Assembly: GCA_030681615.1 (NCBI GenBank) | Contig: JAUXSA010000134.1 | Location: 1-36,944 of the forward strand | DNA length: 36,944 bases | Direction: 5' to 3' | Origin: Bacteroidota bacterium | GTDB lineage: Bacteria > Bacteroidota > Bacteroidia > B-17B0 > Aurantibacillaceae | Program-made: the position numbers and the translations under genes | Part shown: piece after piece, positions 180 to 31,911 of the stretch | Position numbering within the stretch: the first letter of the stretch is position 1 | Layout: every line of letters begins with the position of its first letter | Notes under the pieces: generated by a model | The model's input: only the letters and a program-made list of their open reading frames with translations | What the model was told of the DNA's origin: nothing | The model's database searches: none

Positions 180-2558
180 ATGAAAAAAAATTATCTCCTC
201 TTGTTATTCATGTTTTTAACTGCTATTGCTTTTAAAACTAAGGCACAGAGCCAAAGTCAAACTATTCGCGGAACGGTTATCGATAAACAATCGCAATCTA
301 CCATCCCTGGTGCTAATATAATTATTATTGGAACAGAACCTATTAAAGGTACTGTTACTGATATGGATGGCCGTTTTAAAATTATAGAGGTTGGTCCCGG
401 CCGATACGACATAAAAATATCTTATTTAGGATATAAAGAAATTGTAATGCCAAATGTGGTTGTAACTTCCGGTAAGGAAGTGGTATTGGATATTGGAATA
501 GAAGAAAATATAAATTCGTTAAGCGAAATCGAAGTTTCGGGTACTAAAAAAAATGAAACTAACAACGATATGACAAGTGTTAGCGGTCGATCATTTTCTA
601 TGGAGGAAGTAAATCGTTATGCCGGTGGACGTTCAGATCCATCAAGACTTGCAGCTAATTTTGCAGGCGTTAGTTCGCCTGATGATTCAAGGAATGATAT
701 TGTTATAAGGGGAAACTCACCTACCGGTGTTTTATGGCGCATTGAAGGTTTAAACATTCCAAATCCTAATCATTTTTCTACCGTTGGTACAACAGGTGGC
801 CCGGTTAGTGCTATTAATACGAACGTGATCAAAAATTCAGATTTTTTTACTTCAGCATTTCCTGCAGAATATGGTAATGCCAATGCGGGTGTATTTGATC
901 TTGGTTTTAGGACAGGGAATTCAGAAAAACGTGAGCATACTCTACAATTGGGTGCTTTAACCGGATTAGAAGCTATGACAGAAGGCCCCATTAATAAACA
1001 AAAAGGTTCTTCTTATTTATTCGCTTATCGTTATTCGTTCACAGGTGTGGCGCAAGCTATTGGAATTCCAATTGGTACAACGGCCACTCCTTTTTACCAG
1101 GATATTTCTTTTAAAATTAATGGCGGCAATACAAAATTTGGCAAATTTACTTTGTTTGGTTTAGGCGCAAAAAGTAAAATAGATTTTATTCATACAAAAA
1201 TTGACAGTACCGATCTTTTTGCCAATCCTACAAAGGACAGCTATTTTACAAGCGATATTGGGTTAATAGGTTTAAAACATTTTATTAAAGTAAATGAGCG
1301 TTCGTATTTTAATACTATTATTGGCGCCACTTATAACGGTTCTAATTATTTAGAAGATAATATTGCAACAGATACAAAGCCGCTAGAGCGTTATGTAGAA
1401 AATAAAACGAGTCAAATACATTATTCAATAAACACGTCGTTCAATTCGAAAATAAATTCAAAATTATTTGTAAAAATTGGCGTGATCTCTGAAGTAATTA
1501 ATTTAATATTAGATGCGCGTGTAAAAGATTCAAATTCGGTTTGGAATAAATATTGGGATTTTAATGATTATATGGTACTTCACCAGGCTTATGCGCAAGC
1601 AAAGTATCGTTTTACGGATAAGTTGACTTTAAACCTTGGTGTGCACGGACAGTTATTGGATCTTAACAATTCTACTTCTATTGAACCACGTGTAGGAATA
1701 AAATACCAGTTGAATGAAAAAAACACAGTAAGCCTTGGTTATGGTATGCACAGCCAGATGCAACCTGCCGATGTTTATTTTTACCGTACAAGAAAAGCCG
1801 ACGGAACTTATGAAACAACAAATAAGAATTTAGGTTTTACAACCAGCCAGCATTTTGTTTTAGGTTATGATATATTACCGGTAAAAGACTGGCGCATAAA
1901 AACAGAAGTATATTACCAGTTATTATCAAATGTTCCTGTAACTAAAACACCAGGCAGTTTTTCGATGTTGAATACCGGCGCCAGTTTTTTGCCTAACGAT
2001 CAGGTTAACCTAGTAAATTCAGGTAGCGGTACAAATTATGGCGCTGAATTAACCATAGAGAAGTTTTTTAGCAAAGGCTATTATGTATTAATAACAGGAA
2101 CTGTTTATGAATCAAAATATAAAGGTAGCGATGGAGTAGAACATAATACTGCTTTTAATGGTAATTACGTGTATAATATTTTAGGTGGAAAAGATTTTAA
2201 AATAGGAAAAGAAAAACGTAATGTATTTTCGGTCGGGATAAAAATGACACAAGCGGGTGGACGTTATTTTACACCGGTTGATCTTGAAGCTTCTCAGGCC
2301 GCTGACGCTCAGGTTTTACAAGGTGACGCATATGCATTCTCGCAACGAAATCCTGATTTTTTTAGATTAGATGTAAAAACAGGCTTCACTTTTAATAGCA
2401 GAAAAAGTAAATTATCGCAAACACTGTCATTTGATATACAAAATGTAACAAATAACAAGAATGTGTTTGCACAACGTTATAATCCGGTTACAAATACTGT
2501 TAATACAGCATATCAAATAGGCTTCTTTCCAAACTTTGTTTATAAAATTCAATTCTAA
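180..2558 (+). CDS. TonB-dependent receptor with N-terminal carboxypeptidase-regulatory-like domain
   Basis: Outer-membrane beta-barrel transporter of 792 aa, expected to import an unknown ligand using TonB energy. Residues 1-22 form a Sec signal peptide ending KTKAQ. Residues about 28-115 are a CarboxypepD_reg-like beta-sandwich (TIRGTVIDKQ, then GTVTDMDGRFKI and YDIKISYLGYKE). About 140-245 is a plug domain (DIVIRGNSPTGVLWRIEG, then AFPAEYGNANAGVFD). The rest is beta-barrel with alternating strands and ends in aromatic-rich FPNFVYKIQF, a typical C-terminal barrel strand. No SusD partner is adjacent, so it is not a classic SusCD pair. The next gene starts 2 nt downstream, then a histidine kinase and response regulator follow, which suggests substrate-linked regulation. 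The substrate cannot be read from the sequence. Confidence 0.9.
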   Translation: MKKNYLLLLFMFLTAIAFKTKAQSQSQTIRGTVIDKQSQSTIPGANIIIIGTEPIKGTVTDMDGRFKIIEVGPGRYDIKISYLGYKEIVMPNVVVTSGKEVVLDIGIEENINSLSEIEVSGTKKNETNNDMTSVSGRSFSMEEVNRYAGGRSDPSRLAANFAGVSSPDDSRNDIVIRGNSPTGVLWRIEGLNIPNPNHFSTVGTTGGPVSAINTNVIKNSDFFTSAFPAEYGNANAGVFDLGFRTGNSEKREHTLQLGALTGLEAMTEGPINKQKGSSYLFAYRYSFTGVAQAIGIPIGTTATPFYQDISFKINGGNTKFGKFTLFGLGAKSKIDFIHTKIDSTDLFANPTKDSYFTSDIGLIGLKHFIKVNERSYFNTIIGATYNGSNYLEDNIATDTKPLERYVENKTSQIHYSINTSFNSKINSKLFVKIGVISEVINLILDARVKDSNSVWNKYWDFNDYMVLHQAYAQAKYRFTDKLTLNLGVHGQLLDLNNSTSIEPRVGIKYQLNEKNTVSLGYGMHSQMQPADVYFYRTRKADGTYETTNKNLGFTTSQHFVLGYDILPVKDWRIKTEVYYQLLSNVPVTKTPGSFSMLNTGASFLPNDQVNLVNSGSGTNYGAELTIEKFFSKGYYVLITGTVYESKYKGSDGVEHNTAFNGNYVYNILGGKDFKIGKEKRNVFSVGIKMTQAGGRYFTPVDLEASQAADAQVLQGDAYAFSQRNPDFFRLDVKTGFTFNSRKSKLSQTLSFDIQNVTNNKNVFAQRYNPVTNTVNTAYQIGFFPNFVYKIQF

Positions 2559-2560
2559 AA

Positions 2561-3139
2561 ATGAAAAAAATATTGATCATAAACGGGCATCCAAAAAAAG
2601 ATAGTTTTTGCAATTCTTTATGTGAGGCCTATAAAACAAGTGCAAAAATAGCTGGCAATGATGTTATTTTATTAAATCTTCACGAACTCGATTTTAATTT
2701 AAACTTGCAAATGGGTTATTCTAAACAAAGTACAATAGAACCAGATATACAATTTGCGCAGGAAAAAATAAAATGGGCTCAACACATTGTTATTGTGCAT
2801 CCCGTTTGGTGGGGTTCAGTTCCGGCTCTATTAAAAGGGTTTTTTGATACCACCTTGTTGCCTGGCTTTGCTTTTAAATACAGAGATAAAGGAGTTTTGT
2901 GGGATAAGCTTTTGGCAGGAAGAACCGCAAGAATAATTTATACAACAGATACACCAATATGGATCTACCGTTATTTTTTTAATTCACCTTCTGTGAACCA
3001 GGTTAAAAAAAGAACGCTGGCGTTTTGCGGAATAGATCCCGTAAAGGTTACGGCTATTGGTCCTATAAGAAAATCAAAAATGGAGTTCAGGGCAAAGTGG
3101 ATTGAAAAAATAGAAGCACTTGGAAGAAATGCCGCATGA
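2561..3139 (+). CDS. Flavodoxin-fold NAD(P)H:quinone oxidoreductase (KefF/MdaB/NQO-like)
   Basis: Predicted cytoplasmic FMN- or FAD-dependent quinone reductase of the Flavodoxin_2 family, 192 aa, a normal length. The N-terminal phosphate-binding loop is seen in KILIINGHPKKDSF, and the family signature PVWWGSVPALLKGFFD lies at about residues 86-101. Such enzymes reduce quinones by two electrons, protecting against redox cycling, and some act as ancillary subunits of KefB/C. The gene begins 2 nt after the TonB receptor stop and ends 33 nt before the histidine kinase GTG, so it is probably co-transcribed. Its place inside a receptor/two-component operon is unusual and hints that the signal or substrate is redox-active. 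The substrate is an inference. Confidence 0.82.
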   Translation: MKKILIINGHPKKDSFCNSLCEAYKTSAKIAGNDVILLNLHELDFNLNLQMGYSKQSTIEPDIQFAQEKIKWAQHIVIVHPVWWGSVPALLKGFFDTTLLPGFAFKYRDKGVLWDKLLAGRTARIIYTTDTPIWIYRYFFNSPSVNQVKKRTLAFCGIDPVKVTAIGPIRKSKMEFRAKWIEKIEALGRNAA

Positions 3140-3172
3140 TCTTATAACCTAAAATTTTATTACATTTAAGCA

Positions 3173-4192
3173 GTGAGAAAAAATAAAATACGCTTTTTGT
3201 ATATGGTGCTTTTGGGCATTATTATTTCCTTTCTTTTGGACGTAATTGTTGAGCATAATGACCATGGTCACACGAAGATGTTTGATTTTCTTATTTCTGT
3301 ATTGATTACGATTATTGTTTGGGAGGGTAATTTAAGGATCGATACAATAATGAACCATAAATTTCCATGGGAAAAAAGCCCGGGCAGACGAATATTGTAC
3401 CAACTTCCTATAAGCATGATATTTAGCGCATCTGCTATTTACCTTTCCATGCTTGCGTTTGACAAATTTGTTTGCGCCTTGCCCGAAGAAGCTAAGAACG
3501 CATTTATGAGTACTGCCATTGTAATGGGTATTTTAGTCACTTTTATTGTTTTATCAATTGAGATCAGCGCCTTATTTTTTGGAAACTGGAAAAAGTCTTT
3601 AGTTGAAATTGAAAAGTATAAATCGGAAAACTTACAAGCGCAATTACAAAATTTGAAGAACCAGTTAAATCCACACTTTTTATTTAATAATTTAAGTGTG
3701 TTATCCTCTTTGGTTTACATCGATCAGGATAAGGCCGTTGATTTTATCAATCAGCTTTCTAAAGTTTACCGTTATTTGCTCGATAACAGAGATAATGAAT
3801 TAGTTGCCCTTGAAACTGAATTGGCTTTTATTCAATCATATACTTATTTAATAAAGATCCGTTTTGATAAAAATATTATTTTTAATCTTGATATTCCAAA
3901 AGATAAAACACACTTAATGTTACCGCCATTATCTCTTCAAATGCTAATAGAAAATACGATTAAACATAACGAGATCTCAAATGAGCTACCTCTAACTGTT
4001 CAAATAAAGGTCGCAGATGATATGTTGGAGATCTCTAATAATCTGCAATTACGAAAATCAACCGAGATTAGCTCTAAAACAGGTTTACAGAATATAAAAG
4101 ATCGTTACAAATTTTTTACCGAACAAAACGTAGAAGTTATTTCAACAGATAGATCATTTACAGTAAAAATTCCATTATTAAGATCTAAATGA
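3173..4192 (+). CDS. LytS-type sensor histidine kinase (His_kinase family)
   Basis: Inner-membrane sensor kinase of 339 aa. Four hydrophobic segments are visible at about residues 8-26, 37-52, 76-97 and 111-136, with almost no extracytoplasmic loop. A short coiled coil (about 142-165) leads to the His_kinase motif LNPHFLFNNL with phospho-acceptor H168. The ATPase domain shows an N box (LIENTIKHN, about 259-267) and the GLQNIKDRY signature typical of the family. The start is GTG at 3173; no ATG lies close upstream in frame. It overlaps the response regulator by 4 nt (ATGA), so the pair is translationally coupled. It presumably phosphorylates that LytTR regulator. The sensed signal is unknown. 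Confidence 0.9.
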   Translation: MRKNKIRFLYMVLLGIIISFLLDVIVEHNDHGHTKMFDFLISVLITIIVWEGNLRIDTIMNHKFPWEKSPGRRILYQLPISMIFSASAIYLSMLAFDKFVCALPEEAKNAFMSTAIVMGILVTFIVLSIEISALFFGNWKKSLVEIEKYKSENLQAQLQNLKNQLNPHFLFNNLSVLSSLVYIDQDKAVDFINQLSKVYRYLLDNRDNELVALETELAFIQSYTYLIKIRFDKNIIFNLDIPKDKTHLMLPPLSLQMLIENTIKHNEISNELPLTVQIKVADDMLEISNNLQLRKSTEISSKTGLQNIKDRYKFFTEQNVEVISTDRSFTVKIPLLRSK

Positions 4193-4944
4193 AAGCAATA
4201 ATAATAGAAGACGAAAAATTATCGGCTGAACATTTGGCTACGCTTTTAAAAAAGGTGGATAGTTCTATAGACATTATTGCCACATTTGATTCGGTAAAAA
4301 AAAGCGTAGAAGAATTTACCAAAGGGTTGAAAGCTGATTTGTTATTTGTAGATATTCATTTGGCGGACGGTTTAAGTTTTGATATTTTTTCGAAAATATC
4401 TATCGAAACGCCGGTCATATTTACTACTGCATACAACGAGTATGCAATAAAGGCCTTTAAGATAAATAGTGTTGACTATCTTTTGAAACCAATAGGCATA
4501 GAAGATCTTCGAAATGCGGTTGACAAATACAAAAAATTAAATACTATAAATCAGGCGGTTATTTTAGAGAATATTTCCAATGCGTATCAAAGCATAAACA
4601 AGCAATTTAAAAATCGTTTTATGGTAAAAATGGGCGATTCCATTTCTTCTATAAAAACAGAAGAGATCTTGCATTTTATTTCTGAAGACGGTATGGTTTT
4701 AATTGCTACTGAGAATGGAAAACGTTTTGTGATAGATTATACATTGGATAATCTGGAAACATTGATATCACCCGATATTTTTTTCAGGATCAACCGTAAA
4801 GTGATCATAAATATTAGCAGCATTCAAAAAGTTGGATCATATTTTAACAGTAGACTGAAAATAAATTCATCTAATTTAAATGATGAAGACTGTGTTGTAA
4901 GTCGCGAACGCGTGAATGAGTTTAAGTCTTGGCTTGATAAATAG
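4189..4944 (+). CDS. LytTR-family response regulator transcription factor
   Basis: A 251-aa DNA-binding response regulator. The receiver domain (about 1-120) carries acidic residues near E7/D8, phospho-acceptor D55 in LLFVDIHLAD, the switch TTAY motif and K100 in YLLKP. A LytTR DNA-binding domain occupies about 143-250 (FMVKMGDSISSIKTEEILHF, then FFRINRKVIINISSI). LytTR proteins bind as dimers to direct repeats upstream of their targets. The gene overlaps the kinase stop by 4 nt and closes the operon. A weak hairpin over the stop codon (GCTA/TAGC, 4944-4958) followed by a T-run could end transcription, but its stem is only 4 bp. The likely targets include its own operon, by analogy only. Confidence 0.92.
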   Translation: MKAIIIEDEKLSAEHLATLLKKVDSSIDIIATFDSVKKSVEEFTKGLKADLLFVDIHLADGLSFDIFSKISIETPVIFTTAYNEYAIKAFKINSVDYLLKPIGIEDLRNAVDKYKKLNTINQAVILENISNAYQSINKQFKNRFMVKMGDSISSIKTEEILHFISEDGMVLIATENGKRFVIDYTLDNLETLISPDIFFRINRKVIINISSIQKVGSYFNSRLKINSSNLNDEDCVVSRERVNEFKSWLDK

Positions 4945-4967
4945 CTACAATTTATAGCATTTTTTTA

Positions 4968-4994
4968 TTGTCGTCAAATAAAGCCGTTACTTTG
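4968..4994 (+). promoter_or_regulatory. Candidate promoter implying a near-leaderless mRNA
   Basis: TTG (4968-4970) is followed after 16 bases by TTACTTTG (4987-4994), one mismatch from TAnnTTTG. Transcription from it would start around 4998, only about 4 nt before the GTG at 5002. The short spacer and the mismatch make this moderate evidence. Confidence 0.4.
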
Positions 4995-5001
4995 TAAAAA
5001 C

Positions 5002-6375
5002 GTGTTTGCAATTATTGACATAGAGACCTGCGGCGGGAAATTTAATTACCAAAAAGGAAGGATCACTGAGATCTGTATTATTGTACACGATGGTTTAGTG
5101 GTTGTAGATAAATTTACAACCCTTATTAATCCTGAATGTTACATTTCACCTTATTACACAAGCCTTACAAGTATTACTAACGATATGGTGCGCGATGCTC
5201 CAAAATTTCATGAGGTTGCCAAAAAAATCATTGAGATGACAGAGAATTGTGTGTTTGTAGCACACAACGTTGGCTTTGATTATAATTTTGTGAAGGATGA
5301 ATTTGCATCACTCGGTTACAAATATCAGCGCGAAACGTTATGCACCGTTCGGTTGAGCAGAAAATTAATTCCCGGAAGAATATCATATAGCCTTGGTCAT
5401 TTATGCGCTTCTTTAGGTATAGAGATCTTTGGTCGCCACCGTGCCGAAGGTGATGCTGTTGCTACCGCGCAGCTATTTGATCTATTAATACAGCTAAAGA
5501 ATAATAATCCTTTATATAGAAACAAAGGTGTTGTTGAAATAATGACGCGCCGGGTTGACAACATAAAAAAATACATTTTAGATAAATTGCCCGAAAGTTG
5601 CGGCGTGTATTATTTTTTAAATAAAGAAGGCGGCATTATATATATTGGTAAAAGTGTGAACATGTATAACCGCGCGCAAAGTCATTTTGGTACCGAAGAG
5701 CGCAAAGGCAAAAAAATGTTGAATGATCTTTATAACGTTGATTTTGTAGAGACGGGTAGTGAATTAATAGCATTATTACTAGAGGCCGAAGAAATAAAAA
5801 AACATAAGCCACTTTATAACCGTAAAAGCAAAGCAGATGTATTTACACACAGCATTGATTGGTTTAAAAACAAAGAAGGCATTATCGGTTTTAAAATTGT
5901 GCCTTACGATGAGTCTGAAAATTCTTTGGTTGCTTTTACAAATTATTCTTCTACACGTGAAAGACTAGAAAGTTGGATAGAGGAAAAGGTGTTGTGTTTA
6001 CAATATTGTTCTTTAACCAGCGAAGGAAGTTTTTGCTTTAACCACCAGATAAAAAAGTGTAATGGCATTTGTGCAGGAGAAGAAGAAATTGAAGAATACA
6101 ATAAACGCGCTGCTGAAATTGTAACACAATATAGTTTCCATCACCCAAACTTTGTGATCATAGAAAGGGGGAGAAGGGCTGATGAGAGTGCTATTGTACT
6201 GATAGAAAAAGGGCATTACGTGGGTTATGGATATTTTGACAGCTCAGATACTTTTAGTTCGCCCGAAGAAGTTGGAGGGTTGATAAAGCGCAGTCTATAT
6301 TACCCGGATGCTGATGGCTTGGTGCAAAACTGGTTAAGAAAAAGCAGGAGAAGGGTAATTGATTTTAGCCAATAA
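5002..6375 (+). CDS. DnaQ-like 3'-5' exonuclease fused to GIY-YIG (UvrC/Cho-like) endonuclease
   Basis: A 457-aa cytoplasmic two-nuclease fusion. Residues 1-165 form a DEDDh exonuclease of the DNA polymerase III epsilon type: D6 and E8 in IIDIETCGG, D93 in AHNVGFDYNF, and H146 with D151 in GRHRAEGDA. Residues about 195-280 form a GIY-YIG domain: CGVYYFL, IIYIGKS with R224 nearby, an acidic segment ending LLLEAEEI and HKPLYNRK. The remaining about 180 residues resemble the Bacteroidota version of this family, with a Cys-containing segment KKCNGICAG as seen after the GIY-YIG domain in UvrC/Cho relatives. A role in excision repair is inferred; such fusions occur in several bacterial phyla. The start is GTG at 5002, placed by the IDIET motif at the extreme N-terminus. 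Confidence 0.9.
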   Translation: MFAIIDIETCGGKFNYQKGRITEICIIVHDGLVVVDKFTTLINPECYISPYYTSLTSITNDMVRDAPKFHEVAKKIIEMTENCVFVAHNVGFDYNFVKDEFASLGYKYQRETLCTVRLSRKLIPGRISYSLGHLCASLGIEIFGRHRAEGDAVATAQLFDLLIQLKNNNPLYRNKGVVEIMTRRVDNIKKYILDKLPESCGVYYFLNKEGGIIYIGKSVNMYNRAQSHFGTEERKGKKMLNDLYNVDFVETGSELIALLLEAEEIKKHKPLYNRKSKADVFTHSIDWFKNKEGIIGFKIVPYDESENSLVAFTNYSSTRERLESWIEEKVLCLQYCSLTSEGSFCFNHQIKKCNGICAGEEEIEEYNKRAAEIVTQYSFHHPNFVIIERGRRADESAIVLIEKGHYVGYGYFDSSDTFSSPEEVGGLIKRSLYYPDADGLVQNWLRKSRRRVIDFSQ

Positions 6376-22075: not shown

Positions 22076-23464
22076 TTAAGGTCTATAAATGATCTTATAA
22101 GGAAATAATCCTTTTGTAGTTGGATTTACAAAGAAATTAAATTTGCATAAGGTCTTTAAAATTTTTGTTAGTTCATCTTTTTGTTTTGCAGTAAGATCGT
22201 AAGAATTTATATACTCTACTTTTTCTACCATTTTTTTTTCGTTCACAAAAAGTGTTACGTCAAATTTTTGGTCTATATCTTTACCTTTTAATTTATCTCT
22301 CAAATCAGTTGTAGCTGCTGTTTCGCCACCAGTATAATAACAATTTATTGCAGGTTCTTTTTGGGCTTCGGCCGACGCAGTGTTTTCAAGAACAATAGCA
22401 TCTTTTGTTGTGGTAATATTTGGTGAGCCTGGTTTATAGTCGTTATTTTCGCTTACCGCACCTGTAGCACTTTGTTTATTATTTGCCCTTTTTGCTTTTT
22501 TACCTGCTTTTTCTTCCCTGTTAACGGAAGTGTTCTTATCCATATTAATAGCCACAGGCTGATTTAAATCTTCTTCAGCGTCGTTATCATTCCTTCTATC
22601 TTCTTTTTTTGCTTTTTCTTTTGGGCTTCCATACGCAACTTCATTTTTAGGTGTAGATTCTGTCTCAGCTAATTTTGCTTTTTGATCAGGCGTTTTAGTA
22701 GTAATAGATTTAAAAGCCTCACCTTCTTTATCTTTTGAACCTTTAGCAAGATCATCTATGCCTGCGGTAGTGTTATTATTTTTTGAATTTGAACCTGAAC
22801 CAACTGAAGTCATTTCATCAGCAGCAACTTCTTTTTTTCTTTCAGATTGTTCTTTTTCAATCTGTTTAATATCAACAGGGCCCTTTGTAGAAGCCGCTAC
22901 AACCATTCTTGGTTTGGTTTCTTTTTCATCTTGAGCAACTTTATTATTAGTGGTAGCAGCAACCATATCTTTTTCACCGGCCTGATCTTGCAGATCTAAT
23001 TTTCCTGATTTTAATTTTTCTTCAGTTTTTTTTGCAGGGCTTTCTTCGTCCGTCAAAGTTGCTGCTTCAGTTGGCGGAGCTATAGTTTCTTCTTTTAATT
23101 CTGCTTTACTATCCGGTAAAACATTTTTCTCATTTTCCTGCACTGTATTTGTTATAGCAAGATCATGACTCTTAGAAAGAGAATCGTTATTATTTAAAAT
23201 AAATAGTACGCTTAAACCAACCACTAAAATTAAACCTGCAGCGGCAAACCAATAAATTTTTGGATTTTTTTCTTCTTCTTTAGCAAATAATTCTTTTTGA
23301 ATGCGTGTATCTAATGAAGCTTTAAGATCAGCTGCTTCCTGCTCAGACTCCAACATATCAAAACCCTCAATAGCATCTTTCTCAAAGTCATCCAAACCTT
23401 GTTTATCCGCTTTTGCTTTATTAAAAAGTTGATCTAAATTATCCTTATTTATTGGGGTCTTCAT
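22076..23464 (-). CDS. Single-span membrane protein paired with the ECF sigma factor, putative anti-sigma factor
   Basis: A 462-aa protein with the layout expected of a membrane anti-sigma factor. It has a charged cytoplasmic part of about 68 residues (DDFEKDAIEGFDMLESEQE), one membrane segment at about 70-90 (IYWFAAAGLILVVGLSVLFI), then a long charged low-complexity periplasmic stretch rich in Lys, Glu, Asp, Ala and Asn (about 91-370). A compact C-terminal domain (about 370-462) contains FDVTLFVNEKKMVEKVEYI and ends GLFPYKIIYRP; its pattern recalls the C-terminal domain of TonB-like proteins, a tentative resemblance. It overlaps the sigma gene by 20 nt, so the two are translationally coupled. 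It lacks a recognisable ZAS zinc motif or FecR domain. The anti-sigma role is inferred from gene order and topology. Confidence 0.75.
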   Translation of the reverse strand: MKTPINKDNLDQLFNKAKADKQGLDDFEKDAIEGFDMLESEQEAADLKASLDTRIQKELFAKEEEKNPKIYWFAAAGLILVVGLSVLFILNNNDSLSKSHDLAITNTVQENEKNVLPDSKAELKEETIAPPTEAATLTDEESPAKKTEEKLKSGKLDLQDQAGEKDMVAATTNNKVAQDEKETKPRMVVAASTKGPVDIKQIEKEQSERKKEVAADEMTSVGSGSNSKNNNTTAGIDDLAKGSKDKEGEAFKSITTKTPDQKAKLAETESTPKNEVAYGSPKEKAKKEDRRNDNDAEEDLNQPVAINMDKNTSVNREEKAGKKAKRANNKQSATGAVSENNDYKPGSPNITTTKDAIVLENTASAEAQKEPAINCYYTGGETAATTDLRDKLKGKDIDQKFDVTLFVNEKKMVEKVEYINSYDLTAKQKDELTKILKTLCKFNFFVNPTTKGLFPYKIIYRP

Positions 23465-24032
23465 TAATTAGTATTTCCATTTTTAATTTTAAATTTCTTT
23501 TGCCATTTTGTATATGGCTTTTTACTTCGTTGGCCGTGTAACCTGTAATGTCAACAATTTCTATGTAAGATTTGTTCTTCAAATAAAAGAGATCTATACA
23601 TTTTTTTTGTTCAATATTTAATAGTTCCATAGCCTTTTCCATTATCACAATTTGCTTCTCCTTTTCATTGAGATGCTCAGGATTTGAAAAATCCATAATT
23701 AAGTGCACATTTTCTTTTAATTCGAGCTCTTTCTTAAGCATACTCTGCCTTTTACGCAGTTCCATAAGGCAAAAATTCTTGCTGTAAACGTATAACCAGC
23801 TTTTAAAGAACTCAATTTTATGCTTTTTGAGGTCTTTCATTAGGCCTGTAAATATTTGAATTACTGCATCTTGCGCCTCATCTTTGTTCTTAAGGTACTT
23901 TATGCATAAACCTAAAACCAGGTGACCATAGCGCTCATAAAGGATCCCAACGATGTTATTATCATCTTTTTCTAAAAAAACGTTAATTAAATCGTTATCA
24001 GAGTAACTGCTGTATTTGTTAGTGGCACTCAA
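23445..24032 (-). CDS. ECF-type RNA polymerase sigma factor
   Basis: A 195-aa sigma-70 family factor of the extracytoplasmic-function type. Region 2 is at about 14-95 (LYERYGHLVLGLCIKYLKNK, then DEAQDAVIQIFTGL and SWLYVYSKNFCLMELRKRQ). Region 4 is at about 130-190 with a helix-turn-helix (YLKNKSYIEIVDITGYTANE, then VKSHIQNGKRNLKLKM). There is no sigma-1.1 or region 3 domain. The start is TTG at 24032; no ATG or GTG lies nearby in frame and region 2 begins soon after. It is divergent from the YfiR-phosphatase operon. By analogy it should be released when the downstream-encoded membrane protein is inactivated. Its target genes are unknown. Confidence 0.9.
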   Translation of the reverse strand: MSATNKYSSYSDNDLINVFLEKDDNNIVGILYERYGHLVLGLCIKYLKNKDEAQDAVIQIFTGLMKDLKKHKIEFFKSWLYVYSKNFCLMELRKRQSMLKKELELKENVHLIMDFSNPEHLNEKEKQIVIMEKAMELLNIEQKKCIDLFYLKNKSYIEIVDITGYTANEVKSHIQNGKRNLKLKMEILINEDPNK

Positions 24033-24095
24033 TTGTGATACGATTTTAAGACTAAATTATGAAAATAACAATAAAAGCTATTAAAAAGCAAACAT

Positions 24096-24103
24096 TATAT
24101 TTG
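24096..24103 (+). promoter_or_regulatory. -7 promoter box for the YfiR-phosphatase operon
   Basis: TATATTTG fits TAnnTTTG exactly. A transcript would start near 24107. The first plausible start codon, CTG at 24129, lies about 22 nt later. No -33 TTTG is evident at the usual distance. Confidence 0.5.
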
Positions 24104-24128
24104 TAAATTAGATAAATTTTTAAAAAAA

Positions 24129-24656
24129 CTGGCCAAAAATTTTAAATATTGGGTACTGTTATTTTGTGTTGTCTCAGTTAGATTTCAACAACCATCTAAT
24201 TATGACACCAACGCAAAGATAAAGGCTGTTTTTCTTTACAATTTTACGCGATATTTTGAATGGTCTGACAAAAAGAAGGCTGGCAATTTTATAATTTACG
24301 TTGTTGGCAAGAACGAAAATCTTATTACCGAATTAAAAACCTTAGCCAGCAAAAAAAAGGTAGGTAATCAGGATATTGAAGTAAAAAATTCTTATGTATT
24401 TGATGCCGCTATTTCTGCGCAAATAGTTTATCTGTTGCCTGAAGTTTCGAAAGTGGTTGCAGATGTTTCTTCTAAAAGCAAATCAAAAAGCACTTTAGTT
24501 GTTGCCGAAAGTCCCAATGCCTGCAAAACAGGATCGAGTATAAATTTTGTAGTTGTAGATAACAAATTAAAATTTGAGTATAATAAAAATAATGCTGTAA
24601 AAGCCGGCCTAAAAACAAATGATGATTTTAAAGCACTAGCAATTAATGTTGAGTAA
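24129..24656 (+). CDS. YfiR-like (DUF4154) periplasmic protein without a standard start codon
   Basis: The reading frame is open from 24075 to the stop at 24654-24656 and encodes about 175 aa from the CTG at 24129. The N-terminus from there reads as a signal peptide (AKNFKYWVLLFCVVSVRFQQ), followed by the DUF4154 signature KAVFLYNFTRYFEWSDKKKA, then FIIYVVGKNENLITELK, and later LVVAESPNAC and INFVVVDNKLKFEYN. This matches YfiR, the periplasmic inhibitor of the diguanylate cyclase YfiN. No ATG, GTG or TTG occurs in frame before the conserved core: the only in-frame ATG-like codons are CTG (24129) and ATT (24099). The next TTG (24435) is deep inside the domain. Thus the gene uses a rare start or has lost its normal one. 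It lies 17 nt before the TPR gene and should be the first gene of the operon. The identification as YfiR family is good; the start is uncertain. Confidence 0.75.
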   Translation: MAKNFKYWVLLFCVVSVRFQQPSNYDTNAKIKAVFLYNFTRYFEWSDKKKAGNFIIYVVGKNENLITELKTLASKKKVGNQDIEVKNSYVFDAAISAQIVYLLPEVSKVVADVSSKSKSKSTLVVAESPNACKTGSSINFVVVDNKLKFEYNKNNAVKAGLKTNDDFKALAINVE

Positions 24657-24673
24657 TATTAAAACAAATTAAA

Positions 24674-25576
24674 ATGAGCAAATGGCGCAACATATTAAAA
24701 ACCTTTACATATAGCATTTTATTGCTATGTGTTGTAAATGGTTTTGCGCAGAATGATAAGCTTAACCGAGCCCAACAATTACTGCAATCTAAAAATGCTG
24801 ACATGGCCAGGCTGGCTATTGATAGTGTTATTGTACACGATGAAACAAAAGGTGATTATGTGGCTTGGACAACCCGCGCTTATATTTATTTTGAAATTTA
24901 CAAGCGTAGCGATAAACTCAAATTGAACTCTTCTTTACGTGATACCATTCTTTCTTCTTTAAAAACTTCAGGTAAATTAAAGCCGGATGAAACCTTTACA
25001 ACTAACAATAAAAAATTACTTTCAAATATTGCAGCGGGTTATTTTAACCTGTCTAAATTATTGTTGATGGATTCTATTAACTACAGCCGCAGTCTTATTG
25101 CTTATAACCGGTTTAAAGAAAATTTTGGTGTAGCTGAACCAGGAACAAATTTTACTGCCAGGGATATTGAATATTATTTGGCCGTTGGTAGTATATATTC
25201 GGATATTTTTAATAAGGATAATAAAAATACTTCTGCCCAAGACATAGCAAAAATTGCTTTACTAAAAGTATTGGATATTCAACCGGAGAATCCTTCTGCA
25301 AACATTAACCTGGGTATCATGTATTACAACCAGGCGGTAAATTTAGGTAAGGGATTGGATTATGGTGCAGACTTCTCGCAAATAGATGTGGTACAGGAAA
25401 ATATTATTAAACTGGCAAAACAAGCTGAGCAGTTTATTATAAAAGTTTATAAAGTTGATAATAAAAATGTAAAAGCGGTTGAAGCACTTCATAGCATTTA
25501 CAAAATGCTGAACGATAAAGCGAAGGAAGAAGAGTTTAAGAAAAAATGTAAAGAGTTAAATATTAAAATAGACTAA
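24674..25576 (+). CDS. Exported TPR-like helical-repeat protein
   Basis: A 300-aa protein with a Sec signal peptide (FTYSILLLCVVNGFAQ, residues about 10-26). The mature part is all-helical, with repeated pairs of about 34 residues such as NKLLSNIAAGYFNLSKLLL and NPSANINLGIMYYNQAVNL, so it is a TPR-like scaffold in the periplasm or on the outer membrane. Some Bacteroidota fuse TPRs to SpoIIE phosphatases; here the helical-repeat part is a separate exported protein encoded directly before such a phosphatase. It lies 17 nt after the YfiR-like gene and its stop shares one base with the phosphatase ATG (TAATG). Binding partners are unknown; an interaction with the sensor region of the phosphatase is an inference. 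Confidence 0.82.
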   Translation: MSKWRNILKTFTYSILLLCVVNGFAQNDKLNRAQQLLQSKNADMARLAIDSVIVHDETKGDYVAWTTRAYIYFEIYKRSDKLKLNSSLRDTILSSLKTSGKLKPDETFTTNNKKLLSNIAAGYFNLSKLLLMDSINYSRSLIAYNRFKENFGVAEPGTNFTARDIEYYLAVGSIYSDIFNKDNKNTSAQDIAKIALLKVLDIQPENPSANINLGIMYYNQAVNLGKGLDYGADFSQIDVVQENIIKLAKQAEQFIIKVYKVDNKNVKAVEALHSIYKMLNDKAKEEEFKKKCKELNIKID

Positions 25577-27357
25577 TGGCAATTAGATTCACAATAGGAA
25601 GAAAAATTGGATTAGGATTTGGCTCATTTATTGTTTTAACAATGGTGGCTTTTATTTTAACTGTTTTTACTTTAAATGATAGCAAAAAACAAACCGAAAC
25701 TGTGGTGGGGCAAGTAACACCAAGTGTTGCTGAGTTAAAGGAATTAAACCTTTTATTACAACGCTCGCATACAAACGTTTCAAAATGGTTTTACAATAAA
25801 AGTTTTAATGATATTGAATTCAGGGATGAATTAAAAAATATTATTCGCGTAGAATATCCTGAAAAGAAAAAATTATTACTAGCGTTATCACTAACATGGT
25901 CGGCTGATGAAAAAACACAACTACGTGTAATTTTTGGCAGGGTTGAAACTTTATTTAAAGTGTATCAGAACGAGATCATTGGTCAGTTAAATTCAGCTGA
26001 GGCTTACGAAGACCCAAACATTTACATGATGGCGCGTTTGCCATATGAGGATTCGGAAGTTAACATCAAAACTATTTACCGTAACCTTAATTCATTGATT
26101 GCTTTTAAACAGGAGGCTGCTGAAAAAGTAAAGGATGAGATGTTTGATTCGTTTAAATTCTTAAAAGGATTTGTGCAGTTATTAGGCATTACCCTTGTAA
26201 TTGGCGGAACTTTAATTGCCTTGTACACCACGCGCTCTATTACAAAACCAATACAGGTTTTAAAGAAAATGTTGCTTTCGATGGGCCTTGGTATTTTGCC
26301 TAAAGAACGTATTCAAACAAGAAATGATGAGGTAGGTGAAATGGGCGTTGCTTTAACCGATCTTATCCAGTCGATGGAGCAAACAACCAAGTTTGCAAAG
26401 GAAACTGGGGCGGGAAAGTTTGATGCTAATTACAAACCATTAAGCAAAGATGATACTTTAGGTCACGCATTATTAAAGATGAGGGATGATCTTGCAGAGA
26501 ACGAACGTAGTTTGGAGCGTAAAGTAATGGAGCGAACCGAAGAGGTTGTGCGTCAAAAATCAGAGATCGAAAATAAGAACGAAGAGTTAGAGATTCTTTA
26601 CAAACAGGTAACCGATAGTATTCATTACGCAAAAAGGATCCAGGAAGCGATCTTACCGCCGAAAACTATCATTGATCAAATTCTCCCCAACTCTTTTGTA
26701 TTATTTAAGCCAAAAGATATTGTTAGTGGTGATTTTTATTGGGTGGAGAAGAAAAACAACCTTACTTACTTTGCTGCGGTAGATTGCACTGGGCATGGTG
26801 TGCCGGGCGCTTTTATGAGTTTAGTAGGCCATAATATTTTAAAAGACATCATTAGTAATACGGATATAATAAAACCATCTGAGATATTGGATAAATTAAG
26901 AGAAGGTGTAATTAATACCTTGCACGTAAGTAATAAGGGCACGCAATCTAAAGATGGTATGGATATAACCCTGTGCTGCATTAATTATGACACACTAGAG
27001 TTACAATACGCCGCAGCTTATAATCCATTATATATCGTAAGGAATGGAGAATTAATTCAATATGGTGCAAACAAATTTCCTATTGGAGCGTTTATAGGAG
27101 AGAAAGAGAATTTTGATAACGTTACGATCCAACTACAAAAGAACGATCAGTTGTATGTTTTTAGTGATGGTTACGCCGACCAGTTTGGCGGACCAAAGGG
27201 TAAAAAGTTCATGGTAGGCAACTTCCGGAAATTGCTAACGCAGATCTCTCAAAAACCAGTGAAAGAACAAATGGATTTTCTGGATAAGATACTTGCCGAC
27301 TGGCAGGGCGATCTGGAGCAGGTAGATGATGTGCTGATAATTGGATTAAAAGTTTAA
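25576..27357 (+). CDS. Membrane sensor phosphatase: periplasmic four-helix-like region, HAMP, SpoIIE (PP2C-type)
   Basis: A 593-aa inner-membrane protein. TM1 spans about 12-32 (GLGFGSFIVLTMVAFILTVF), a helical periplasmic sensor region runs about 33-196, and TM2 spans about 199-218 (FVQLLGITLVIGGTLIALYT). A HAMP linker follows from about 219 to 275 (TRSITKPIQVLKKMLLSMG), then a coiled coil at about 305-360. The SpoIIE Ser/Thr phosphatase domain occupies about 360-593. The metal-binding acidic residues are visible as D386 (VSGDFYWVE), D403 (AVDCTGHGVPGAFMS), D463 (DGMDITL), D531 (FSDGYADQFGG) and D584/585. Such phosphatases normally act on phosphorylated anti-sigma-antagonist proteins, but no STAS or HPt gene is adjacent. 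The ATG shares a base with the preceding stop. The YfiR-like gene two genes upstream suggests that YfiR signals through this HAMP. Confidence 0.92.
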   Translation: MAIRFTIGRKIGLGFGSFIVLTMVAFILTVFTLNDSKKQTETVVGQVTPSVAELKELNLLLQRSHTNVSKWFYNKSFNDIEFRDELKNIIRVEYPEKKKLLLALSLTWSADEKTQLRVIFGRVETLFKVYQNEIIGQLNSAEAYEDPNIYMMARLPYEDSEVNIKTIYRNLNSLIAFKQEAAEKVKDEMFDSFKFLKGFVQLLGITLVIGGTLIALYTTRSITKPIQVLKKMLLSMGLGILPKERIQTRNDEVGEMGVALTDLIQSMEQTTKFAKETGAGKFDANYKPLSKDDTLGHALLKMRDDLAENERSLERKVMERTEEVVRQKSEIENKNEELEILYKQVTDSIHYAKRIQEAILPPKTIIDQILPNSFVLFKPKDIVSGDFYWVEKKNNLTYFAAVDCTGHGVPGAFMSLVGHNILKDIISNTDIIKPSEILDKLREGVINTLHVSNKGTQSKDGMDITLCCINYDTLELQYAAAYNPLYIVRNGELIQYGANKFPIGAFIGEKENFDNVTIQLQKNDQLYVFSDGYADQFGGPKGKKFMVGNFRKLLTQISQKPVKEQMDFLDKILADWQGDLEQVDDVLIIGLKV

Positions 27358-27372
27358 TTTTAAAATATTTTT

Positions 27373-28899
27373 ATGAGATACGTTTTTAGTTTTCTTTTTT
27401 TTGTTTGCCTAACCTTTTCGGGTTTTGGGCAAACACAAATGAACTATTATAAATCCTTTACGAAAGATGTTGGTATTTCGGCTACAAGTATAAAAACAAT
27501 TACAGCTAAAACGTTTAGCTTAAGTTCGCCTTTATACGATTACCAATCAGACACAGCCTCTAACCAATTAATATTTTCTACACGCAAAAAAGATCCATCT
27601 GGCAGGTTGTATGTTAACAAAGGATTTATTGCAGGATTAAATTGTGCCACCGATTCCATTAACTGGTTGTATGAAAGTTTACGTTTTGATCTTAATTTAA
27701 CCGGCGATTTTTTACTTTTTTCTAACGAGGTAAAAACAAGTCGTTACGATAAAAAACATGGTTTTGAGGTGTACGATTTTAAAGACAGGATCGTGTATGC
27801 CATAGCTGCAAACAATTCGGGTTTAACGTATGATGATCCAAAAAAACCGGATGAATTAAATTGCATTAGTTTATTGAATGGAACTGTATACTGGAAAGCC
27901 AATCTATCTCACAAAGAAGATTGGATGGATGTAAAATATTTAAATGATACAACTATTATTATTGCTGCAAACGGTTTGCATGCAATTAATATTCATACGG
28001 GTTTACTTTGGTCGCACCCGCTTGTTACCGCTGAAAAGAATCAAAAAACACTTGTATACTCTGTTGTACATAAAGAAAACGTTCAAAAAATAAATACATC
28101 GTTTAAAACAACTAAAGAAGATAATTTATTAACGCATTTGGGCTCTAATATCCTTATAGATGGAGATGTTATCTATTTTTCGGGGAAAGAAAAGGCGATA
28201 GCTGTAAAAACAAATGGCGAATTGCTATGGGAGTTAGATCTGAAAGAGTTGCCAATTTCTAAAATGATATTAACAAAAAGTGGTTCGGCTATTACATTAA
28301 TTAATTTAGGTTTAAGCCAGTTTAAAGATAATTATGTTTTATACGGCAAACCATTTGTAATGAATGTGGATGCAGCTACCGGGAAAATTAATTCGCAAAG
28401 TAAATTTACTTCGTCTGAAAACTTAATTGATTTTTTACCTCAAAAACAATCGTATTTGCTGGCGGATAAAAAAAATATCATTCAAACAAATTCCAATAAC
28501 GAATCTTTTGAAAATCTTATCCCGCTTGATGATCACAAGTACGGCCGTTTTGTAGAGTTTATTAATGGTGACGAATATTTTGTTGAAAAAGAAGGTTATT
28601 ACGTGCCATTAAATTTTATTAATGATAATGTAGTTTATTTTAAAACCGAAAATAACAAAGTTTATGGAGTAGATAAAGTTGATGTTCAATATGAATACCA
28701 CTTTACTGAATTATTTAAACGTGATAAGGTTTATAAAGATAAAACGGTGATCTTTAATTTTAAGGACACTTACGTTATTAATAAGAACTTTGAATTGCTG
28801 GCAACATTTAATTTAGTTGAGAGAAGTATTGTAATGAAAAACAAGATCTATTTTTTCGGCGGCAGATTGTTGAATATTGTTGACCTTGACGATCTTTAA
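27373..28899 (+). CDS. Exported beta-propeller protein (PQQ/BamB-like repeats)
   Basis: A 508-aa protein with a signal peptide (YVFSFLFFVCLTFSGFGQ, cleaved near residue 20). Repeated strands of the PQQ/quinoprotein type are seen: DSINWLYES (about 94-102), NGTVYWKANLS (169-179), TGLLWSHPL (209-217) and NGELLWELDL (281-290), followed by more strands to the C-terminus. There is no evidence for bound PQQ; similar propellers serve as scaffolds or ligand sensors. The gene follows the phosphatase by 15 nt and appears to close the operon. A role as the extracytoplasmic part of the same signalling system is inferred from its position. Other propeller families cannot be excluded. Confidence 0.72.
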   Translation: MRYVFSFLFFVCLTFSGFGQTQMNYYKSFTKDVGISATSIKTITAKTFSLSSPLYDYQSDTASNQLIFSTRKKDPSGRLYVNKGFIAGLNCATDSINWLYESLRFDLNLTGDFLLFSNEVKTSRYDKKHGFEVYDFKDRIVYAIAANNSGLTYDDPKKPDELNCISLLNGTVYWKANLSHKEDWMDVKYLNDTTIIIAANGLHAINIHTGLLWSHPLVTAEKNQKTLVYSVVHKENVQKINTSFKTTKEDNLLTHLGSNILIDGDVIYFSGKEKAIAVKTNGELLWELDLKELPISKMILTKSGSAITLINLGLSQFKDNYVLYGKPFVMNVDAATGKINSQSKFTSSENLIDFLPQKQSYLLADKKNIIQTNSNNESFENLIPLDDHKYGRFVEFINGDEYFVEKEGYYVPLNFINDNVVYFKTENNKVYGVDKVDVQYEYHFTELFKRDKVYKDKTVIFNFKDTYVINKNFELLATFNLVERSIVMKNKIYFFGGRLLNIVDLDDL

Positions 28900-31302: not shown

Positions 31303-31911
31303 ATGAAGTTAAAACCACATAAAATTGCTCTTTTTTGCTTGTTTTTTGCGATGTTTTCGTTTAAACAGGAAAATGATTTTTTTCAAAAACTGGTTGTTCA
31401 GGCAGTAAATCAAACTAAAATAAAAGTTACATATGTACCTGCTTATGTTCAAATAAAATATCCTAATGGAGACGTTCCGGCAAATACCGGTGTTTGTACT
31501 GATTTGGTTATCAGGGCATACAGAGGGGTTGGCATCGATCTTCAAAAAGAAGTGCATGAGGATATGGTTAAACATTTTAAGGACTATCCCAAATTATGGA
31601 AGCTAAAAACCCCCGATACCAATATTGACCATAGAAGGGTGCCCAACCTGATGACCTATTTTAAGAATAAAAAGGCAGAGTTGGTGGTAACTGACAAGGC
31701 CGAGGATTATAAACCCGGCGACCTTGTTACCTGGAACCTGCAAAACAAAAAGGTAGTAAGCGGTATCACTCACATTGGCATTGTTACCAACCAGCGGTCG
31801 CCCGATGGTAAACGTTATCTAATTGCCCATAACATTGGAGGTGGTAATAACATTGAGGATATGCTCTTTTCTTATACTATTATTGGGCATTATCGTTTTA
31901 AAGGACAGTAA
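31303..31911 (+). CDS. Exported DUF1287 protein (NlpC/P60-like fold)
   Basis: A 202-aa protein of the DUF1287 family, placed in the NlpC/P60 cysteine-peptidase superfamily. The N-terminus (IALFCLFFAMFSF) is a short hydrophobic export signal. Candidate active residues are C65 (TGVCTDLVIRAYRG), H157 (ITHIGIVTNQR) and H176 (YLIAHNIGGG), the order expected of a C-H-H/N triad. The family motif DHRRVPNLMTYF (about 109-120) is present. By fold a peptidoglycan amidase/endopeptidase is possible, but the substrate of this family is not established. It is divergent from rfbA and its own promoter is not clear. A short dyad (31933-31947) follows the stop. Confidence 0.87.
   Translation: MKLKPHKIALFCLFFAMFSFKQENDFFQKLVVQAVNQTKIKVTYVPAYVQIKYPNGDVPANTGVCTDLVIRAYRGVGIDLQKEVHEDMVKHFKDYPKLWKLKTPDTNIDHRRVPNLMTYFKNKKAELVVTDKAEDYKPGDLVTWNLQNKKVVSGITHIGIVTNQRSPDGKRYLIAHNIGGGNNIEDMLFSYTIIGHYRFKGQ

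Follow-up and report, generated by a model that had tools for sequence, protein, structure and literature searches.

We describe a conserved cassette of three genes, encoding a YfiR-like protein (gene yfiR below), an exported tetratricopeptide repeat (TPR) protein and a membrane phosphatase with four-helix (4HB), HAMP and SpoIIE domains, in a 36,944-nucleotide stretch of a Bacteroidota genome (the window; assembly GCA_030681615.1, contig JAUXSA010000134.1, family Aurantibacillaceae; source genome 4.28 Mb, 199 contigs, 97.8% complete). The cassette probably constitutes a three-part envelope-to-cytoplasm signalling unit, in which the YfiR-like and TPR proteins set phosphatase activity and the output is a partner switch rather than cyclic di-GMP (c-di-GMP). 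Because the three-gene unit occurs in many Bacteroidia and YfiR-SpoIIE fusions also exist, it is probably an undescribed envelope-to-cell signalling route. Its core features are as follows.

24096–24103, forward strand: TAnnTTTG box TATATTTG, candidate yfiR promoter element (48/49 family copies have a box no more than 110 nt ahead of the assigned start).
24129–24131, forward strand: putative yfiR start codon CTG (aligned starts in 49 family copies).
24129–24656, forward strand: YfiR-like exported protein (DUF4154), 175 aa (Pfam; predicted fold nearest to solved YfiR).
24674–25576, forward strand: exported TPR-like helical-repeat protein, 300 aa (hydrophobic segment 7–25; all-helical model; Foldseek).
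25576–27357, forward strand: membrane HAMP-SpoIIE (PP2C) phosphatase, 593 aa (Pfam SpoIIE; 6k4e; hydrophobic segments).
25672–26166, forward strand: predicted periplasmic four-helix-type sensor, phosphatase residues 33–197 (between hydrophobic segments; 4HB_MCP_1 below cut-off).
26764–27351, forward strand: SpoIIE/PP2C catalytic domain, phosphatase residues 397–592 (Pfam; 6k4e; invariant D residues).

These genes (yfiR stop codon at 24654–24656) and a following propeller-like gene are separated by 17 nt, a shared base (25576) and 15 nt, exactly as an initial annotation of the sequence had given them. That annotation treated all four as one unit; the three core genes hold together, whereas the propeller gene, with a relative in 23/49 family copies, is peripheral.

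The established role of YfiR is to repress c-di-GMP synthesis. The cassette protein matches DUF4154 (PF13689) at 89.7 bits (gathering cut-off 24.9, E 2.4e-25), and a structure search with its predicted model (predicted local distance difference test [pLDDT] score 89.6) placed YfiR structures in the top eight rows (Z 15.4–16.4, root-mean-square deviation [rmsd] 2.5–3.5 over 143–146 residues), followed by a row with Z 12.6 and rmsd 8.7. The YfiR-like label given earlier is thus borne out at the level of fold. By sequence, Pseudomonas aeruginosa YfiR is matched just marginally (E 0.23 and 0.36), and scores were below the cut-offs of the NCBIfam sequest_YfiR equivalog (22.6 bits versus 85) and TOL_0243-type YfiR (91.8 bits versus 125) models. 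Relatives of the window lie in the Bacteroidota; the closest named record among them, Bacteroidetes bacterium UBA2475 (L142; L and G numbers denote our loci and genomes), encodes a YfiR with 96% identity. In its own genome, the cassette yfiR is the sole DUF4154 place. Two conserved cysteine pairs are described for P. aeruginosa YfiR in an excerpt of PMC4655355. Conserved cysteine pairs are absent here, with at most one cysteine in 46 of the 49 mature family copies, and the redox sensing that had been proposed for the protein is not supported.

The TPR-like protein has an N-terminal hydrophobic segment (residues 7–25) and a confidently predicted all-helical model (pLDDT 92.9). Foldseek returned TPR repeats as top matches at TM scores of just 0.2–0.4, so the assignment is limited to the type of repeat, and the Pfam TPR match is weak and below cut-off. 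The phosphatase matches Pfam SpoIIE (E 2e-18), with HAMP (E 2.7e-4) and 4HB_MCP_1 (E 8.8e-5) both below cut-off. Hydropathy peaks at residues 13–31 and 198–216 bracket the sensor region previously placed at residues 33–196, and from its position between two hydrophobic stretches this segment is predicted to be periplasmic. Five acidic residues (D386, D403, D463, D531 and D585) are invariant in 17 aligned copies. The best solved relative, 6k4e ("putative serine phosphatase"; E 3e-50), is presumably the PP2C domain of SiaA, and the NCBIfam SiaA model aligns to residues 264–592 (E 2.4e-62, 211.4 bits, below the equivalog cut-off of 700). With a HAMP match (below cut-off) and a SpoIIE/PP2C domain carrying the invariant acidic residues, the protein has the features of a SiaA-like PP2C phosphatase. 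In two loci (L076 and L174), the phosphatase is split into open frames of 232 and 404 residues, which may reflect sequencing error or a true break.

Conservation was assessed first within the family. Eighty family regions, picked by frame length and score rather than randomly, yielded 48 with the operon and 17 with fusions. Among family loci retrieved because of a DUF4154 match in an ordinary-length frame, all 40 showed the yfiR-TPR-sensor/SpoIIE order, as did 8 of 20 further family loci. DUF4154 was present in 83/87 family genomes and the TPR profile in 85/87 (E 0.001, weak matches included). Beyond the family, the TPR profile was found at E 1e-20 in 114 of 395 evenly drawn genomes of the class (99 of the 114 from outside the family). 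From these 114 TPR-positive genomes, 60 loci belonging to 23 other families were chosen by hand for family spread, and in 58 of them yfiR precedes and a sensor/SpoIIE gene follows the TPR gene; this is a rate of neighbour retention, not a frequency of the cassette, for which the 395-genome figure and the 84 places described below are less biased. In L220 the phosphatase is missing, L226 fails the position test alone, as its TPR frame extends upstream, and in L229 only the sensor part is visible, at a contig end. Loci of the L142 type came from a search that overlaps the family loci in species and enter no count. The gene order is hence not confined to close relatives, an outcome that would have told against the pairing.

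Among 84 DUF4154 places (in 54 of 119 class genomes), 39 lie beside a TPR gene, nine are fused to SpoIIE, one each is fused to a nucleotide cyclase and a histidine kinase, and 34 are in other contexts (11 fetched, four loci scanned). The sensor/SpoIIE gene was present in 32 of the 33 TPR-linked places fetched (all but G137, G138, G149, G162, G172 and G180).

YfiR-SpoIIE fusions were identified in 17 family proteins and eight others from the class, each with one or two YfiR domains, and in all 25 a hydrophobic (membrane) segment lies between YfiR and SpoIIE. Tandem YfiR domains precede the membrane helix of the fusion in L020, L021, L023 (one domain cut off) and L025. The output domain can also be exchanged: a cyclase domain replaces SpoIIE in a YfiR fusion paralogue of L284, a histidine kinase does so in L289, and in L301 (positions 1–2985) the cassette's four-helix sensor (E 2.6e-66) is carried by a GAF-histidine kinase-receiver hybrid encoded after a yfiR gene. 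In a YfiR tree (midpoint root; a hand-made subset of 20 family copies plus the even-numbered class loci, with three long-branch rows unsure), operon YfiR form one group (support 100/96), fused YfiR, including the cyclase and kinase fusions, lie on another branch (98/95), and YfiR from other contexts are placed elsewhere in a weakly held group (63/75). Since fused YfiR are separate from operon YfiR, the pairing of YfiR with SpoIIE is seen in two lineages. The earlier proposal that YfiR is paired with a HAMP-SpoIIE phosphatase is strengthened accordingly, as the association extends across the class in trans and recurs as fusions in another YfiR lineage. As separate observations, two adjoining YfiR fusions in L284 differ in output, one with a nucleotide cyclase (3998–5833) and one with SpoIIE (1872–3800), and in L293 and L296 yfiR lies between the genes for a TonB-plug receptor and a CHASE8-HAMP histidine kinase.

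In our model of the cassette, the gene order, the fold, the fusions, the topology and the absence of GGDEF domains are computed, and the class-wide gene order together with fusions in a separate YfiR lineage supports a coupling of YfiR to the phosphatase. We propose that the YfiR-like and TPR proteins, once exported, would control how active the membrane phosphatase is, most likely through docking of YfiR on the periplasmic four-helix domain of the enzyme. From there, the second membrane helix and HAMP would relay the signal to the SpoIIE/PP2C domain, whose most likely targets for dephosphorylation are SiaC-like (or STAS) proteins encoded at other loci, in opposition to kinases of the SiaB type. 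In this scheme we infer that YfiR binds the phosphatase, and likewise the signal and the substrate, and repression as the sign of control is suggested by analogy with YfiBNR of P. aeruginosa. Several observations weigh against the proposal: L220 carries yfiR and the TPR gene without a phosphatase; 34 of the 84 DUF4154 places in the class sample are in other contexts; the fusions have no four-helix sensor and therefore illustrate that YfiR feeds into SpoIIE rather than how the two make contact in the cassette; and the cassette includes neither SiaB nor SiaC, its phosphatase being tied to none of the seven SiaC-like places or the single STAS match in the genome.

YfiR may instead be a ligand-binding activator, similar to substrate-binding proteins, whose ligand-loaded form activates the phosphatase, rather than a YfiBNR-type repressor. 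The structural matches next in rank include binding domains from Vibrio cholerae and Streptococcus pneumoniae (3lkv and 3lft; L-Trp; high rmsd) and a Rhodothermus substrate-binding protein (6k1x), and in the fusions YfiR is the input domain of the same chain. Solved YfiR nevertheless ranks first in that search by a Z of 15.4–16.4, and we regard activation by ligand as a serious possibility that falls short of being probable. It is unlikely, in our view, that the genes merely share one envelope process, with YfiR and TPR in a separate periplasmic complex and a different input sensed by the phosphatase. The retention of yfiR and TPR alone in L220 would fit such an arrangement, but 25 proteins link YfiR and SpoIIE through a membrane helix, and in L293, L296, L300 and L301 the neighbours of YfiR are other membrane signalling proteins.

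For the output of the proposed YfiR-TPR-phosphatase unit, a SiaC-type partner switch is our best guess. According to an excerpt of PMC7647112, SiaA is the HAMP-PP2C phosphatase of a partner switch that also includes the kinase SiaB, and SiaC is the protein on which it acts. The source genome contains 62 SpoIIE matches at E 1e-20 (about 60 genes, because some were matched in two pieces), one STAS match, seven SiaC-like places and 14 HATPase_c_2 matches, one of which is a 139-aa stand-alone protein (93.8 bits). Five of the seven SiaC places are at most 2.3 kb from a SpoIIE match, and SiaB-family kinases adjoin both SiaC genes whose neighbours were scanned. The cassette would supply an input for one SpoIIE phosphatase out of about 60, and with it a handle on their targets. 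Output through c-di-GMP was rejected, as no GGDEF match was found in the genome (the control was positive in 8/14). A side observation is the imbalance between about 60 SpoIIE genes and one STAS plus seven SiaC-like matches, such that many phosphatases seemingly converge on few targets.

Three neighbouring genes complete the region.

27373–28899, forward strand: last gene of the run, beta-propeller-like according to the initial annotation, accessory (relative in 23/49 family copies).
23445–24032, reverse strand: divergent extracytoplasmic function (ECF) sigma factor, TTG start, possible companion, not core (Pfam and NCBIfam ECF; 40/49 family copies).
22076–23464, reverse strand: anti-sigma-like protein, possible companion, not core (one hydrophobic segment near residues 72–90; 39/49 family copies).

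Their coordinates confirm the divergent placement of the sigma and anti-sigma-like genes. The sigma protein matches Pfam Sigma70_r2 and r4_2 and NCBIfam ECF models, while neither the propeller-like nor the anti-sigma-like protein had a Pfam match. A control of a sigma pathway by the cassette had also been suggested, and in its full form the six genes would be a single sigma-regulating system with the divergent pair as output. We consider this improbable. Within the family the sigma gene (40/49) and the anti-sigma-like gene (39/49) are common companions, but a sigma match occurred in just 4 of the 60 loci from other families, and the anti-sigma-like protein, which has a membrane segment, lacks a HATPase or STAS domain as judged from the absence of any Pfam or NCBIfam family match. 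The suggested link to a sigma pathway is weak. In the rest of the window, a DUF1287 protein (31303–31911; 225.7 bits) has no link to the cassette as far as seen. A role in anti-phage defence was rejected for the four-gene run, as its four proteins had no PADLOC match at E 0.001.

The start of yfiR is itself unusual. No ATG, GTG or TTG lies at the right position, and a standard list of open reading frames (at least 80 aa) omits the gene; the frame opens after a stop at 24072–24074, with CTG at 24129. The codon aligned at the start is CTG in 26 of 49 family copies, TTG in 17, ATG in three, ATT in two and ATA in one, and 26 of the 32 same-genus copies have CTG. As CTG provides only 11.6% of leucine codons in the downstream parts of these genes, the fixed CTG is not plain leucine usage; the copies compared are related, and no probability is claimed for its conservation. 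For this assignment, the codon sought was set by hand for each locus from codon lists (CTG by default, 23 others hand-listed), and a script chose the copy nearest to 28 codons before a conserved motif. When these loci were searched, as a control, for an ATG close to the start of the profile match, one was found for the phosphatase (48/49), TPR (41/49), propeller (23/23) and anti-sigma-like (33/39) genes, compared with 7/49 for yfiR and 8/40 for the sigma gene, which hence also has a weak start. This automatic test accepts any ATG near the profile start, giving 7/49 for yfiR rather than 3/49 by assigned start (the ATG of L042 precedes the TAnnTTTG box, and those of L063, L064, L087 and L088 follow the hydrophobic stretch). 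Two divergent genes thus both carry conserved weak starts, CTG/TTG in yfiR (24129–24131) and TTG in the sigma gene (24032). The TAnnTTTG box is what we take to be a Bacteroidota −7 type promoter box; sigma-70-type promoter candidates in the region were about as many as chance predicts (23 versus 21.6).

An upstream start or a frameshift is not needed, given the in-frame stops close before the start codon: one to four codons before CTG in L041, L047, L052, L053, L059 and L060, and immediately before TTG in L063, L064, L070, L086, L087 and L089. That yfiR is a decaying gene that lost its start codon can practically be dismissed, since, for all the lack of an ATG, GTG or TTG in place, the frame is intact in all 49 family copies, in 46 of them the aligned position is occupied by a codon that is weak or near-cognate, and the fold is predicted confidently. 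A weak start is not general in the class, which limits the start-codon reading: 39 of 60 loci outside the family have ATG in place (the 21 without it include L238, which is truncated, and L261, which contains N), so that CTG is a trait of the genus and a non-ATG start a trait of the family. In an excerpt of PMC5622118 covering 36 genome triplets, switches to CUG were reported for 2 of 61,358 AUG, 1 of 5,080 GUG and 1 of 2,468 UUG ancestral starts, and the CUG start of yfiR is unusual against such rates. A search of open-licence PubMed Central literature on CTG starts in Bacteroidetes gave a sole match, which concerned a phage. A gene finder restricted to ATG, GTG and TTG would miss or shorten yfiR. 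In the cell, the weak start may keep the dose of YfiR low. A broader and more tentative idea, rather doubtful as a whole, is that YfiR is a plug-in envelope sensor of Bacteroidia, acting in trans or in cis on phosphatase, kinase or cyclase outputs, with the weak start (CUG in the genus) tuning the pathway through initiation fidelity and a SiaC switch doing the work of c-di-GMP in GGDEF-free cells.

Open-licence PubMed Central literature yielded nothing linking YfiR with SpoIIE or with PP2C, and the cassette resembles several known systems in part. It shares a SpoIIE/PP2C catalytic domain with RsbU-type phosphatases, although its genome has about 60 SpoIIE genes and one STAS match. SiaABCD of P. 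aeruginosa also has a HAMP-PP2C phosphatase, whose catalytic domain is the most similar one among solved structures, and SiaB and SiaC types occur in the cassette genome; however, no SiaB, SiaC or SiaD was found among the cassette neighbours scanned, the partners are YfiR and TPR proteins, and GGDEF is absent. Within the same class, the systems of L293 and L296 (YfiR, CHASE8-HAMP histidine kinase and TonB-plug receptor) likewise set YfiR beside a membrane HAMP signalling protein, but with a kinase output, a CHASE8 sensor and a YfiR outside the operon clade. The likeness to YfiBNR of P. aeruginosa (YfiR, YfiN and YfiB) lies in a periplasmic YfiR fold, a membrane HAMP signalling neighbour and a third envelope protein. 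The partner in the cassette is a SpoIIE phosphatase with a four-helix-type sensor, whereas that in YfiBNR is a diguanylate cyclase with a PAS/CHASE8-type domain; a TPR protein takes the position of YfiB, with no OmpA match among nine neighbouring proteins scanned; and the cassette YfiR lacks the conserved cysteine pairs, just as its genome lacks GGDEF. With its link to protein dephosphorylation in a GGDEF-free genome and across many families of the class, the YfiR fold would be a modular envelope sensor.

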